Assembly: GCF_000430585.1 (NCBI RefSeq)
Contig: NZ_AUMH01000019.1
Coordinates: 1 to 64,000 of the forward strand
Direction: 5' to 3'
DNA from: Alicyclobacillus herbarius DSM 13609
GTDB lineage: Bacteria; Bacillota; Bacilli; Alicyclobacillales; Alicyclobacillaceae
Length of the DNA: 64,000 nt
Part shown: one piece after another, positions 40,558 through 64,000 of the stretch
Layout: each line of letters opens with the position of its first letter
Numbering within the stretch: the first letter of the stretch is position 1
Translations under genes and position numbers: made by a program
The notes under the pieces: model-generated
Seen by the model: only the letters and a program-made list of their open reading frames with translations
Database searches by the model: none
What the model was told of the DNA's origin: nothing

Positions 40558-41160
40558 TCACCCGTCCGTCAAACGTCCTGCATTTCGCTGAGCCTGGCGA
40601 AAGATTTGCGCCAAGCTCAGTTTTTTGCGCTCAGGAGCTGGCGGGGGCGTGGATGAAGCCGCTCCCGCCGGATTCGCTGTGTGCTCTGTGTGATCTTCTG
40701 GCCCTACCCCCGAGGCGTCGGCTGACTCACCTGAAGCCCCCGTGTCTTGGGAATCCAGCACGCCACCCATACGGTCCGTTGCCGCGGCGTCTCTGGAAAA
40801 CGCGCGGATATGGGAGGTAGATCCCGACAGCGGTCCGGTTCCCGGCCATCCGTCCGCCGCTGCCCCCGTGTCGGGCCCGGGATGGACCGGCGCGCTGCCA
40901 TCGGTTCGCGTGGCGCGCGGCGGCCAATCGAAATCCTCATCGTCTTCCAAGGCACCCGCGACCGGAGTCTCGGTTTCTGGCGTTTCCGCTCCGTGCGACA
41001 ACACATACTCCGTCAAAATGTCGATGACACCTTGGCTGAAATTTCCTTCATCCTTCAGACGGTTGAGGTAGGCAATCACTTCCGGTGGCGTCTCTGCCGG
41101 AACGTAGAGGGTAATGTCCTTGCCGGGTCGGACATACACCGTGGAGCGGCGTTTCCTCAA
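40558..41160 (-). CDS. Partner of the ParM-like protein (putative ParR-type adaptor)
   Basis: A 200-residue protein encoded directly after the ParM-like gene; its TTG start overlaps that gene's TGA by 4 bases (TTGA), so translation is coupled. Residues 1-57 (STVYVRPGKDITLYVPAETP, then PEVIAYLNRL) look like a compact DNA-binding or ribbon-helix-helix-type domain. The rest is an acidic, Pro/Gly/Ser-rich disordered stretch that ends in a conserved-looking basic helix (KKLSLAQIFRQAQRN). Position and layout fit ParR: an N-terminal DNA binder and a C-terminal peptide that touches the filament. No direct family match is claimed. Confidence 0.6.
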   Translation of the reverse strand: MRKRRSTVYVRPGKDITLYVPAETPPEVIAYLNRLKDEGNFSQGVIDILTEYVLSHGAETPETETPVAGALEDDEDFDWPPRATRTDGSAPVHPGPDTGAAADGWPGTGPLSGSTSHIRAFSRDAAATDRMGGVLDSQDTGASGESADASGVGPEDHTEHTANPAGAASSTPPPAPERKKLSLAQIFRQAQRNAGRLTDG

Positions 41161-42365
41161 TGCGCATCCTTCCCGTCCTCTTTTTGTGCTGCCGGCGCAC
41201 TCGAAGTCTGTTCAACGGCGGCCGCCGCCTGCGGCATCGTCTCCAGGGCGTGTGACAACAGCAGGAAGGTTCCACGGGCGTTGCGGAATTGGCTGTATTC
41301 GGCCGCGTCGAAGCGCAGTGGCAGACCCAACTCCGCGTTGAGTTTTTCAATCCACGGCTGCAACACAATCGATCCACCACCGATAAACCAGAACTCATTG
41401 GCGTAGCGGACATGCTTCCAGGCGTTGCGGGCTGACTTGAGCACCTTCTCGGCCAGGATGCGCATGTGGCGGTTGACCAGGCCGGTCATGTCAAAGACGA
41501 CCTTGCCTTCGGCGTAGATCTCATATTCTTTGTTGACCAGCATTTCCGTGAGCTCGGCGGTGCTGGCGATGAGCTCTTCTCCCTGGGCGTTGACCTCGTT
41601 GCGGATGTTCTCCAGGGCATCATTGAGGTGAATCTTCGTCCCGGTCGAATGGCGCTGATCCAATTCCAGACCGGGCCGGAAGAAGGCAATATCCATATCG
41701 ACACCGCCCACGTCGGCAATTCCGAAGCCTTTGTGCGACAAGGGCGACTTCGAGGTGGCCTCGATGTCATAGACACCGGAGACATCGTCGATGCCAATGT
41801 CAACGGGCAGCGAAAATTCGAGTTCTACGGTCACGCCCTTGTAGACGGGCGTGGTGACAAAGGTTACGGAATGAACGCCACCTGTAATTTTGGCGGCGAA
41901 TTCCGCACGAAACTTTGCAATCTCGCTGATGGGCAGTCCCGTGCCGAGGTACACATGCGCCTTGATGCGCTTTAAACCGGCCCGGATTTCCGCCTCGTGC
42001 TTGCGCGCGACCGCGTAAGCGGCGCCCGTCAGCAGAGTGACCATGGTCTCTGGTCGCTGCGCCTTCTTTTGGGCCGCCTTATCGCCGACAATCTCATGCA
42101 CGACACCTTCGTCGCCGATCGCTAGGTTTCCGACATATACGTGGCGGTACTGTTCGCTGGTAATAGCCGGAGAGGTAATCTGCACGTCGAGAAAGTCGAG
42201 CGGGTTGCCTTGCTCTGTTAAGAGGAAGCGCTCCCCTATCGGCTGCGAGACAACGTTGGGGAAAATAAACGTGTTCTCGATTTGGTCGTAGATTCCTTTG
42301 ATGTGGCTGCTGCCATTGTCCATGGATAACGTAATCGTCGTGTTTGCGGCTTCGTTTTTCGCCAA
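41157..42365 (-). CDS. ParM/StbA-like bacterial actin
   Basis: Actin-fold ATPase of 402 residues that polymerises in plasmid segregation systems. Visible actin motifs are phosphate 1 (ITLSMDNGSSHIKG, near 10-24), a central VYLGTGLPI, phosphate 2 (GFGIADVGGVDMDIAF) and the adenosine loop (EFWFIGGGSIVLQPW). The C-terminal 30 residues are Ala/Gln rich and variable. TTG 42365 has AGGGGAG 5 bases upstream; a longer ATG frame extends into AT-rich noncoding DNA. It is followed by the coupled small partner and preceded by a palindromic AT-rich region, the usual parC-parM-parR order. Neighbouring genes look chromosomal, so the module may come from a plasmid. Confidence 0.82.
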   Translation of the reverse strand: MAKNEAANTTITLSMDNGSSHIKGIYDQIENTFIFPNVVSQPIGERFLLTEQGNPLDFLDVQITSPAITSEQYRHVYVGNLAIGDEGVVHEIVGDKAAQKKAQRPETMVTLLTGAAYAVARKHEAEIRAGLKRIKAHVYLGTGLPISEIAKFRAEFAAKITGGVHSVTFVTTPVYKGVTVELEFSLPVDIGIDDVSGVYDIEATSKSPLSHKGFGIADVGGVDMDIAFFRPGLELDQRHSTGTKIHLNDALENIRNEVNAQGEELIASTAELTEMLVNKEYEIYAEGKVVFDMTGLVNRHMRILAEKVLKSARNAWKHVRYANEFWFIGGGSIVLQPWIEKLNAELGLPLRFDAAEYSQFRNARGTFLLLSHALETMPQAAAAVEQTSSAPAAQKEDGKDAH

Positions 42366-42437
42366 GTTCGCTCCCCTCTCCAACCCACAGTTCTTACTTT
42401 CACAGTATATGAGATTCTGGGCGGCTCGCCAACGCAA

Positions 42438-42575
42438 AAATTGAAGCTTGAAAGCTTAGGATTTAAACCTTAAGTCTTAGAAGTTTACCCAAGTAACGTT
42501 TGAACTTTAGAGTTCAAACGTCAAACTTCAAATCCTACAGTTTACCATCCAACATTTAAACTTTAACTCTTAACC
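42438..42575. repeat. AT-rich array with palindrome (parC/centromere or operator candidate)
   Basis: Upstream of the ParM-like start, this stretch is far richer in A and T than its surroundings. It contains a perfect palindrome at 42497-42520 (CGTTTGAACT, TTAG, AGTTCAAACG) and several related words (GTTTAAA, GTTTGAA, GTTTGAC, GTTCAAA, GGTAAAC on the minus strand) at irregular steps. In ParMRC systems the ParR-binding centromere lies exactly here and also acts as operator. Confidence 0.55.
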
Positions 42576-42759: not shown

Positions 42760-44883
42760 CTATTCGGTGACTGTCAAGGTCGGGCCATCCGAATTCGCGA
42801 ACCACTGGAGAAAGCCCCAGTTGCTCGTGAACAGCCCCACCGGAAAGGTGTATGTTCCTGCAGAGGACGGAGTAAACGTTGCCGTCTCCGTCACCGTTTC
42901 GCCCGGCGCCAATGTCCCGTTTTTCGCAAACTGGGTGACCCATGTACCGTCGCGGTAGACGTATTGGTTCAGTATCCCGTTACTTAGCCAACGCGAATCC
43001 GACGTATTCTTGTATGTCGTGCTAACCGTCACCGGCGTTCCCACCTTGACCGTACTCGCCGATAACATCGTCTTTACCGTCACATCCCCCTGCACAATCG
43101 GGTCTGGCTCTGTCACAGTAAACTGTCCCGCGGATTCATCCGCCAAATACGTAACAACCCCGTCTCTACTGAACGCGAACGCTCTCACCGTATACGTACC
43201 CGGCACGTTCGGCGCCTCCCACGTCATCGTCACCGCACCTGTACAATCCCCCGGATGCAGCGAGACACCGTTGAGCAACTTCCGGCCCACCAGCTCTCCA
43301 GCCGGATTGTAGACCTCCAGGCTTACCGTCGCCCCCCGCAGCTGCGCTCGAACCGCTTTAAATCGCGCCGTAATCGTCTCCGTATAGCTCGGTTTCACCG
43401 TCGGACTGCTCACCGTTGTCGTCGCCGACACCCCCGCGCCATACCCTGCTCCACAATGCCGCGGAGTCAAGATCACCTCTCGCAACGAGTACGGCGGCAG
43501 CTCTACCAACCCGGCATCCTGCAGCCGCTCCGTCTCAATTCCGTGACTCCCCTCGCCGTAGCTAAGCACTGTGGCCCATTCCTCGGCCCGGTACCCCTCC
43601 AGGTGCAGCTTCACATGGTACAAACGGTTTGGGTCTTTGTTAATCAGCAGCACAACCAATTCCCCGTTTGGCAACTTCGCCGCGTGGGCTGCCACCTCAG
43701 CGTCACTGCTGCCAGCTCCGACCAGCGTCGCCCCCGGCCTATCCATCCGTGCCAGTAACTCGTACGCATAGTAACTCGGGAATGGTGTATTCGCCGTCGG
43801 CTCGCTAATACCATCCGCGGACGATCCGTTCGCCAACAGTCCGTAATCTCCAAACGAACTCGACCCGTACAGACCGGGGTCTATATTCGCACCCTGCGAC
43901 GCGGTGACAATCCCGTTGTGCAGGTCCCACCAGTCCACGTTCACGGCGCCCGCCTGGAGCCAATCCGCCATATCATCCGCCAGGAAAAGCGCGTTCACCA
44001 GGCTCGTTGTCTGCTTGCCCGGGTTGGAAGATACGCTGTTGGTTTCCGTGACAAACACCGGGATATGTCCTAACTGCCGCTTCAGCGTATCCATCACCGT
44101 GGCAATCATCTCAGTCGACGCCAGCAACCCAGCATCCGATTCCCCGCCCGGATTCTGTGGATACCAGTGGACAATCCCGAAGTCGGGCTCTGTCCCTAGT
44201 TCCCTTAACTTCGCCAACACGCGAGCATTCCAGGTATCGTCCCCCGTCCCGGGCGCAATCAAATCCACACCAATCTGAATAGACGGATCGACCGCCTTCA
44301 TCGCTTTCATAAACTGACTCGCTTTCTCAGCGTATCCCTCCGGATTGCCGTTGAAATTATGTCCATTCCCCTCCCAGTTGCCGTACAACTCATTGCCGAT
44401 TTCCCAGTACCGGATGTGATAGTCGTGCGTCACGTTCGCATCCTTCACCCAGGCAGCCGCCTCTGCCGCCGTCCCAGTACCCCCATTGACCGTGATAATC
44501 GGCGATGCACCGGTCGCCTCAGTCACGCGCATAAACGCATCAAAACCGCTGTTCGGGTTAGCCCAACCACCAAAATCCACCGTGTTCGTCTGCCAATGAT
44601 ACACATCCGAGGTCGATCCACCCGGATAACGAAGCATCCTGGCCCCAATCTTGCGCAGCATCGACGGCACATCCTTGTCTGTCAGGTGCCCGTCCCAGAC
44701 TGCCGTGTTTACCCCCAGTGCGGTTTTCGGCACCCGCGTTAACGGGGCCGAAGCGTTCACCGTCACCACCGCCTCTTGCGGCGTCGGGCTGTCTGCTCTC
44801 GCCATTCCCCCCGCGACCCAGGATGTCCCCAGGACTAAAGCTGTCACAGCACCACCCTGAAAGGCCCACTTCAAACGACACAT
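42760..44883 (-). CDS. Secreted clan GH-A glycoside hydrolase with two C-terminal sandwich domains
   Basis: Extracellular enzyme of 707 residues. A signal peptide (to about residue 30, ending MARA-DS) precedes a (beta/alpha)8 barrel; the acid/base Glu is in YWEIGNELYG (E165) and the nucleophile in VFVTETNSVSS (E280), spacing and motifs like GH51/GH39 arabinofuranosidases or endoglucanases. A beta domain closes the catalytic module (to about 470), then two Ig-like domains follow (about 475-585 and 590-707), perhaps for wall or polysaccharide binding. ATG 44883 follows GGGAGGG by 8 bases. It probably attacks plant polysaccharide; exact substrate unknown. Confidence 0.85.
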   Translation of the reverse strand: MCRLKWAFQGGAVTALVLGTSWVAGGMARADSPTPQEAVVTVNASAPLTRVPKTALGVNTAVWDGHLTDKDVPSMLRKIGARMLRYPGGSTSDVYHWQTNTVDFGGWANPNSGFDAFMRVTEATGASPIITVNGGTGTAAEAAAWVKDANVTHDYHIRYWEIGNELYGNWEGNGHNFNGNPEGYAEKASQFMKAMKAVDPSIQIGVDLIAPGTGDDTWNARVLAKLRELGTEPDFGIVHWYPQNPGGESDAGLLASTEMIATVMDTLKRQLGHIPVFVTETNSVSSNPGKQTTSLVNALFLADDMADWLQAGAVNVDWWDLHNGIVTASQGANIDPGLYGSSSFGDYGLLANGSSADGISEPTANTPFPSYYAYELLARMDRPGATLVGAGSSDAEVAAHAAKLPNGELVVLLINKDPNRLYHVKLHLEGYRAEEWATVLSYGEGSHGIETERLQDAGLVELPPYSLREVILTPRHCGAGYGAGVSATTTVSSPTVKPSYTETITARFKAVRAQLRGATVSLEVYNPAGELVGRKLLNGVSLHPGDCTGAVTMTWEAPNVPGTYTVRAFAFSRDGVVTYLADESAGQFTVTEPDPIVQGDVTVKTMLSASTVKVGTPVTVSTTYKNTSDSRWLSNGILNQYVYRDGTWVTQFAKNGTLAPGETVTETATFTPSSAGTYTFPVGLFTSNWGFLQWFANSDGPTLTVTE

Positions 44884-45288
44884 CCTCGCGTCCCTCCCAT
44901 GCACGCGTTTTCAGTCCATGGGAGATGGTATCACCCTGCGTAGCTGAAGACATGGTCATATATTCCGTCAATTTGGTTATTTTCCCCCAAATTCACCTAT
45001 CAACGCAGAAACACCCCTACTTCGACATGTTCTCGCCCTCACACGCAACTCCAACAACCACTGACCGGCGGTCCACAAGGCTCCTCTTGCTGTTCTACAA
45101 CGCGGAGCCGTCGTCCTAAGAGGATGTACTGATGTGGCTCGTACATTGGAACGAAGAACGCTCTGCCAAGGTTTCCCAACCACGTAACCGACGTTCGTTC
45201 AAGCATGAAACGAGAGGGCCCCAGGCTTCGGGCCTTCCCGCCCGCATACACCTGCAATCTAAAATCGTAATCGAAAATAAGGCTCCCC
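44884..45288. other. Intergenic region between the glycosidase and rlmH
   Basis: About 405 bases. It includes an AT-rich part (44945-45010) that probably holds the glycosidase promoter (TTGACG near 44968 on the minus strand, no good -10 at normal spacing). Right of it lies the hairpin listed below. No gene is supported. Confidence 0.4.
45210..45237 (-). terminator. Probable terminator of the htrA-rlmH end
   Basis: GAGGGCCC and GGGCCTTC form a GC-rich stem around CAGGCTTC; on the minus strand TCTCGTTTC follows. It lies about 50 bases after the rlmH stop. The U tract is poor. Confidence 0.4.
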
Positions 45289-63928: not shown

Positions 63929-64000
63929 TTAAGGTTCTTCGCCTACGCTCACCAGATTCAAAATGCGCTCCAAGTCTTCGTCGGAGAAATAATCGATCTC
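63929..64000 (-). CDS. parB: Chromosome partition protein ParB, C-terminal end (partial)
   Basis: The last 23 codons of a minus-strand gene that continues past the window: EIDYFSDEDLERILNLVSVG then EEP and TAA. This acidic ending with the YFSDEDLERI stretch is the C-terminal dimerisation end of ParB/Spo0J. The gene neighbourhood (yyaC, DUF4446, DUF554) supports it. The DNA-binding and CTPase parts are outside the window. Confidence 0.75.
   Translation of the reverse strand, partial: EIDYFSDEDLERILNLVSVGEEP

Follow-up and report, generated by a model that had tools for sequence, protein, structure and literature searches.

A candidate chromosomal ParMRC-type cassette near the replication origin of Alicyclobacillus and Paenibacillus

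Introduction

Actin-based partition is best known from the type II (ParMRC) systems, in which each ribbon-helix-helix (RHH) dimer of the adaptor binds one iteron while the C-terminal domain of the adaptor has a further role (PMC5016525). Pairs of ParM and ParR genes residing on chromosomes have been published for Desulfitobacterium, Clostridium botulinum, Bacillus, Moorella and others (PMC12270681). In the Omega protein of plasmid pSM19035, each dimer binds one 7-bp repeat, and at least four contiguous heptads are needed (PMC9499535).

The locus described here belongs to a 64,000-nucleotide stretch of the genome of Alicyclobacillus herbarius DSM 13609 (contig NZ_AUMH01000019.1, positions 1 to 64,000), hereafter called the window. 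On the basis of the sequence alone, an original prediction had recognized in it a plasmid-type actin partition module in a chromosomal setting, and had proposed either the integration of a plasmid or the use of an actin filament for another task. The comparison of this locus with its relatives favors a third reading, in which the module serves the chromosome itself.

Organization of the cassette

The array, its promoter, the actin gene and the partner gene follow one another in this order on the minus strand (Table 1). The order resembling parC-parM-parR announced by the original prediction is therefore present on a chromosome, where it was placed, and its three components recur together at 34/34 loci.

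Table 1. Features of the cassette and of its context in the window
Feature	Position	Strand	Basis
ParM/Alp7A-like actin gene	41157..42365	(-)	402 aa, TTG start; Pfam, PDB and PHROG matches, alignment
ParR-like adaptor (partner) gene	40558..41160	(-)	200 aa, translationally coupled; present at 34/34 loci
Centromere-like array, putative parC	42438..42575	(-)	7-bp period at 34/34 loci
Sigma-70-like promoter TTGGCG-17-TATACT	42404..42432	(-)	promoter scan; adjoins array
Partner N-terminal domain, residues 1-57	40990..41160	(-)	monomer model and conservation in 34 rows
Partner C-terminal conserved helix, residues 183-194, putative actin-binding peptide	40579..40614	(-)	model and alignment
parB C-terminal end, chromosomal context outside cassette	63929..64000	(-)	TIGR00180 match

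The identity of the actin as a ParM-like protein was upheld by matches that all exceed the curated Pfam cut-offs (Alp7A_like_C, 2e-10; ALP_N, 7e-7; MreB-like_C, 2e-6) and by a match to the 'partition protein' family PHROG 691 (5e-25). With E-values up to 1, its sole sequence match in the PDB was 8x1i (2e-4), the chromosomal ParM Dh-cParM1 of Desulfitobacterium hafniense; a PDB profile search with the 33-row alignment of related actins gave no match. The residues of the ATPase motifs DNGSS, D-GG and GGG, presumably those that bind the nucleotide, are invariant in 33/33 aligned rows. The AlphaFold2 model of this protein is poor (pLDDT 50), the closed beta-barrel subdomain having been assessed on the same poor model, and the Foldseek list obtained from it, headed by BtParM (E 2e-5), lends weak support to the assignment. 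The dN/dS ratio lies between 0.005 and 0.036 in eight of nine pairs of actin genes, two of these eight having a dS of 1.7-2.3 and the ninth pair being saturated in dS. These values point to a strong purifying selection.

The start of the partner gene overlaps the actin stop codon by four bases (TTGA). The product combines a linker of 118 residues, with 21 D/E against 5 K/R and a net acidic character in 34/34 aligned rows, and a last stretch of 25 residues with 6 K/R against 2 D/E. In its structural model, helices 26-38, 41-57 and 183-194 are separated by a low-confidence linker, and the mean pLDDT reaches 88-92 over residues 21-50 and 88 over residues 181-190. The N-terminus starts with a basic arm followed by an expected beta strand, left unassigned in the monomer model, and this domain is predicted to be ribbon-helix-helix-like. 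The C-terminal helix is conserved throughout the alignment except in L036, which is apparently frameshifted at its C-terminus. The overlap, the residue counts and the predicted helices agree with the original description of a coupled partner having a small N-terminal domain, an acidic disordered linker and a basic C-terminal helix. No match was returned for this partner by the Pfam, NCBIfam and PHROG models at the limits used, by Foldseek with its model as a query, or by a PDB profile search with its alignment.

The surroundings are chromosomal, as originally stated. The open reading frame running over the window end is parB (TIGR00180, 6e-61), and the neighboring genes include dnaB, with a score exceeding the NCBIfam cut-off, walK, as a best match under the NCBIfam cut-off, and rlmH, from a Pfam SPOUT_MTase match; htrA and walH/I/J are labels presumed from gene order. 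The dnaA gene lies on the same contig, 34 kb off. Between the array and rlmH, a reading frame at 42760-44904 (-) encodes a possible secreted glycosidase, with weak GH79 and arabinofuranosidase matches below the cut-offs and weak Ig-like matches at its C-terminus.

Relatives of the cassette and their distribution

A contig scan, which reaches close relatives only, detected 33 loci titled Alicyclobacillus, Paenibacillus or Gordonibacillus, with actins 76-91% identical; these loci and the window make up the 34 loci compared here. The partner gene lies directly downstream of the actin gene in all of them. The actin frame is broken in a Gordonibacillus draft (L035), which likely reflects a sequencing error since the dnaA gene of the same assembly is also in two pieces. 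The actin alignment (A2, 33 rows) omits this locus, and the partner alignment (A1, 34 rows) includes it. A sister subfamily, whose actins share 44-48% identity, was found in eight genomes.

In a search of whole genomes, an actin 78-100% identical was found in 34 genomes, namely 9/59 from the order of the window and 25/247 from the order of a Paenibacillus; the latter fraction is not a clean prevalence, six of these 25 genomes being already among the contig-scan loci. When main and sister forms are taken together, the cassette is present in 17/59 genomes of the window's order. A class-wide search of 398 genomes at 1e-60 gave 11 matches, all within the family of the window. The cassette is thus not essential across the group, because most of the relatives searched do without it. 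Within the window's family, the genomes carrying it are larger (median 4.3 Mb, n=17) than those devoid of it (3.05 Mb, n=20; Mann-Whitney p 0.001, a test that ignores kinship, four genomes of <90% completeness having been dropped).

More distant ParM paralogues were also encountered. Four chromosomes of the Paenibacillus order carry a second copy, 27-28% identical (G059:C1:1948991, G135:C1:3077190, G139:C2:8112838 and G171:C1:6703657), at 0.49-0.94 Mb from dnaA, in each case about one tenth of the chromosome length away and farther out than the main-clade cassette of the same chromosomes. Another divergent paralogue (29%; G000:C14:28292-29380, locus L002), whose aligned part contains one TAG and which is followed by a small reading frame, is possibly plasmid-borne or decaying.

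The centromere-like array

The array is markedly AT-rich (68% against 42% across the window) and its autocorrelation at 7 bp reaches 0.50, compared with a mean of 0.33 for shuffled sequences, a value attained by 0/200 shuffles. It contains 11 contiguous 7-bp units at 42498-42574, and further units can be distinguished by eye at 42438-42490 with a shifted phase. The same upstream period was detected at 34/34 loci, with 0/200 dinucleotide-preserving shuffles reaching it at each locus. An iterated matrix built on 389 units gave the consensus TTTAAAS, and the arrays comprise 5-17 contiguous units. By eye, the heptads upstream of the actin in L008, L028, L029 and L036 form two or more separate clusters instead of one run. 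The original prediction of an AT-rich palindromic array upstream of the actin thus stands for composition and position, and the array is better described as a run of heptads than by palindromes only. Relatives devoid of any array, which would have spoken against this prediction, were found at 0/34 loci.

A search pattern of five units with at most three mismatches, picked after trying many forms and applied to both strands, recovers 34/34 arrays. Its extra matches in 494 kb are single places in five loci (L006, L007, L008, L025 and L026). On 640 kb, made up almost entirely of intervals between dnaA and the cassette, it detects the arrays and five further places, one of which lies, by coordinates, inside the G019 reading frame labelled htrA and is the same place as the L008 match. 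The matches outside the arrays were judged to be due to chance.

In the sister subfamily, the period is 8 bp in 8/8 arrays, a significant 7-bp period being found in 0/8, and the N-terminal domain of the partner is homologous to that of the main clade (hhalign 98.5%). Heptads at 34/34 loci on one side and octads in 8/8 on the other, together with N-termini that have diverged but remain homologous, suggest from sequence comparison that the adaptor and the centromere changed together.

The promoter scan, which covered the sigma-70 type only, found one promoter where shuffles gave a mean of 0.4 (sd 0.6), and the same hexamers and spacing can be recognized by eye in L006 and L037. The fact that this promoter abuts the array would suit a former plasmid ParMR pair that has taken up a different cytoskeletal task, for example in cell shape, its array being devoted to autoregulation only. 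A precedent exists in the chromosomal FcmB/FcmC pair, which derives from a plasmid partition system and is needed for rod shape (PMC12645912), and a cell-shape role of this type is the main functional rival of a segregation role. It is nevertheless held to be improbable here: runs of 5-17 contiguous units, maintained at 34/34 loci and matched by 8/8 sister arrays, look long, in our judgement, for an operator alone, and cell shape provides no obvious reason for the proximity to the origin described below.

Proximity to the replication origin

The position of the cassette was measured relative to dnaA, used as a stand-in for oriC, on contigs of 4.2-8.3 Mb taken as complete circular chromosomes. 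The survey of related genomes put forward with the original prediction found the close family on the chromosome in seven genomes of the main clade assembled as single contigs (4.9-8.3 Mb), and in 7/7 the cassette lies within 36-104 kb of dnaA (G020, 76 kb; G022, 36; G032, 104; G059, 68; G135, 65; G139, 72; G171, 86). In the sister clade, the distance on single contigs is 92 kb in G008, 62 in G009, 70 in G010 and 547 in G006. For both clades together, 10/11 single-contig chromosomes fall within 36-104 kb and one at 547 kb; this only single-contig exception is the 8-bp-type cassette at G006:C1:548001-549131. Drafts were used as support only, because the requirement for dnaA on the same contig favors short distances. 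Among the 34 genomes with a 78-100% identical actin, dnaA is on the same contig in 25, always at 30-145 kb, and on a different contig in nine (G018, G021, G065, G072, G156, G180, G194, G229 and G237). Two sister drafts have both on one contig (G027, 36 kb; G029, 60 kb) and two on different contigs (G016 and G026).

The backbone dnaA-parA-parB-dnaB-walK-htrA-rlmH keeps the same order in eight of the nine regions compared (window genome plus eight), the comparison in G022 covering only the other side of dnaA. Along this backbone, the cassette lies at variable distances past rlmH: about 2-3 kb in the window and G019, 12 kb in G223, 20 in G135, 23 in G063, 27 in G059, 76 in G032 and 101 in G062. 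In G022 it is found on the opposite side of dnaA, as it is in G020 judging from coordinates and strand. Within 6 kb of the cassette, the largest groups sharing neighbors at matching places consist of five Alicyclobacillus, eight Paenibacillus and four Paenibacillus loci, and no neighbor gene recurs across groups at matching places among the 34 loci. This placement is compatible with a repeated re-placement near the origin, and it is also compatible with one ancestral site followed by local insertions and a symmetric inversion. As both the actin tree and the DnaA tree split Alicyclobacillus from Paenibacillus, much of the proximity could be explained by a single site inherited near the origin and rearranged locally. 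The ParM tree was midpoint-rooted with no outgroup, the motif filter having kept none of the eight sister rows.

In 96/96 cross-genus pairs, identity is higher for ParM than for DnaA (mean 80.5% against 60.3%). This difference raised the idea of a horizontal transfer from one genus to the other, which was not retained because the same holds in 28/28 pairs within Alicyclobacillus (but in only 24/66 within Paenibacillus) and because both trees split the genera; the same pattern is expected if a small set of ParM sites saturates fast. Within Paenibacillus, the trees conflict, G059, G139 and G171 grouping with G221 and G064 for ParM but with G063, G066 and G176 for DnaA, which makes some transfer or paralogy likely.

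The position near the origin would also suit a cassette acting on this region only during sporulation, by polar anchoring, and not in vegetative segregation, the more so as Alicyclobacillus and Paenibacillus form spores. This restriction appears quite improbable, the promoter found being sigma-70-like, although that type alone was scanned.

Plasmid and phage relatives

When compared with 72,556 plasmid records, the actin gave 27 matches, all below 60% identity, the best being about 30% among the matches listed; phage records gave no match, and a TBLASTN search of plasmids with the L020 partner gave none either. The adaptors of five plasmid relatives nevertheless have an N-terminus homologous to that of the main-clade partner (hhalign 96%). 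The original view that this partner is outside the obvious ParR families consequently holds as far as family models are concerned, but its N-terminal domain is one that plasmid ParM adaptors have in common. The actin-adaptor order was seen in 5/5 plasmid relatives inspected, and a 7-bp period was not found upstream of the actin in 4/5 regions. In the fifth (L076), the AT-rich upstream region scores above its shuffles over lags 7-12, with 1/200 shuffles reaching it at lag 7, and is strongest at lags 9 and 12.

ParMRC systems are usually plasmid-borne, whereas the present family has no close plasmid member and was found on the large contigs of seven genomes. The suggestion that a plasmid integrated at this locus is poorly supported, since, in Alicyclobacillus and Paenibacillus, this same cassette is found at several positions on the chromosome while its plasmid relatives are about 30% identical or less. 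A broader version of this idea sees in the cassette a remnant, selfish or domesticated, of a plasmid or of an integrative element, persisting near the origin by chance. In 26/34 loci, the partner is followed by a third gene with winged-helix segments (for instance L020:7675-8133 (+)), which is HTH_36-like by Pfam and resembles a replication-initiation winged helix (PHROG 4707, 1e-8); it is absent downstream of the partner in the window, and the L008 copy used as a query found no match in the window's genome. This third gene, the gene order common to the plasmid relatives and the patchy distribution all fit a remnant, an origin that is however unlikely in view of the strong purifying selection, the lack of a close relative in the plasmid records, and the absence of any tRNA gene within the window and of any neighbor recurring across the groups at matching places.

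The array and the adaptor could also act as an incompatibility decoy, destabilizing incoming ParMRC plasmids or aiding resident ones. Divergent ParM genes are indeed carried by a second contig in two hosts (G006 C2 and G032 C2), one of which is a recorded plasmid, G032 C2 matching the ALC3 plasmid. A decoy is very improbable, given the distance of the plasmid actins, the lack of a 7-bp period in four plasmid regions and the mixed lags of the fifth, and it does not predict proximity to the origin.

Proposed function

The preferred explanation, with a slightly better than even chance of being right, is that of a chromosome-resident type II (ParMRC) cassette positioning or separating sister origins alongside ParABS. 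A segregation role may be inferred from what the sequences display directly: the cassette itself, its periodic arrays, the conserved motifs of the actin and ends of the partner, the purifying selection and the origin proximity. The centromere-like arrays at 34/34 loci and this proximity speak for a role in segregating DNA, in this case that of the chromosome, and make the other task envisaged in the original prediction unneeded. The genome of the window keeps both ParA and ParB, the former with matches below their cut-offs and the latter above the TIGR00180 domain cut-off, and the actin system would then be an addition to ParABS and not a substitute. The ParA and ParB already present, the absence of the cassette from most relatives, the 547-kb distance in G006, the possible inheritance of a single site and the poor actin model count against the preferred explanation.

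In ParMRC systems, the C-terminal domain of the adaptor meets the filament end. By analogy with these systems and with pSM19035 Omega, the partner would dimerize through its ribbon-helix-helix N-terminus and bind DNA by coating the contiguous 7-bp repeats beside the promoter, probably also repressing the operon. The coated heptads would offer the actin numerous C-terminal helices, and each of these helices, carried on a flexible acidic tether, would cap or capture the end of a polymerized filament. This filament might push or position the sister origins alongside ParABS; because the array is located tens of kb from oriC, its target would be the origin region just after replication.

A bolder generalization is that Bacilli of two families possess, beside ParABS, a second, actin-powered, mitotic-like origin apparatus, combining an actin of the ParM class with an RHH adaptor and with a heptad or octad centromere close to the origin, which would be the first ParMRC devoted to a chromosome; this proposal is tentative, its chances being put a little short of even. 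If the proposed role is true, actin filaments join ParABS and SMC in moving bacterial chromosomes, and a module of plasmid type has been incorporated into the chromosome cycle. The system constitutes a testable case, with a conserved cassette that was encountered on chromosomes only, in a position near oriC, and with a mutable centromere code (7 bp, or 8 bp in the sister clade).

Comparison with known systems

A literature search covering titles and abstract openings, with few subscription journals and no preprints, found neither this clade nor a ParMRC located near the origin. Chromosomal ParMs are already known (PMC12270681); what is new, as far as this literature shows, is the clade, its centromere code of 7 or 8 bp and its position close to the origin. 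Among the known chromosomal ParMs, Dh-cParM1 and Cb-cParM are likewise actins of the ParM type encoded on a chromosome with an RHH-type adaptor nearby, and conserved within a genus (PMC12270681). They belong to a different clade; the main text of that study names neither Paenibacillus nor Alicyclobacillus, and its available text leaves dnaA unmentioned and contains no origin proximity. Cb-cparC consists of three palindromic repeats, with no cparC conserved among strains according to the same available text, in contrast with the contiguous heptads or octads described here.

The FcmB/FcmC pair of Nostoc punctiforme is likewise chromosomal and derived from ParM/ParR, but it functions in cell shape, forms membrane-associated foci and, in the available account of the mutants, its loss brings no obvious change to the nucleoid; its adaptor had no conserved domain by BLAST (PMC12645912).

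The plasmid Alp7A/ParM-StbA systems of Bacilli share with the cassette the Pfam domain Alp7A_like_C, the succession of an actin and a small adaptor, and a homologous adaptor N-terminus. They differ by their plasmid location and by the low identity of their actins. Four of five plasmid adaptors end with an acidic C-terminus (FLNFDDDD-like) instead of the basic IFRQAQRNAGRL-type helix of the present partner, and no comparable heptad array accompanies four of the five systems, the fifth having an AT-rich region of mixed period.

A parallel for the centromere is pSM19035 Omega, an RHH ParB associated with contiguous 7-bp repeats that overlap promoters (PMC9499535). Its minimum of four heptads compares with the 5-17 units present here (PMC9499535). 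The Omega repeat WATCACW is non-palindromic (PMC9499535); the core of TTTAAAS, by contrast, is palindromic. Finally, Omega works with a ParA ATPase (PMC9499535), a place taken in the present cassette by an actin.
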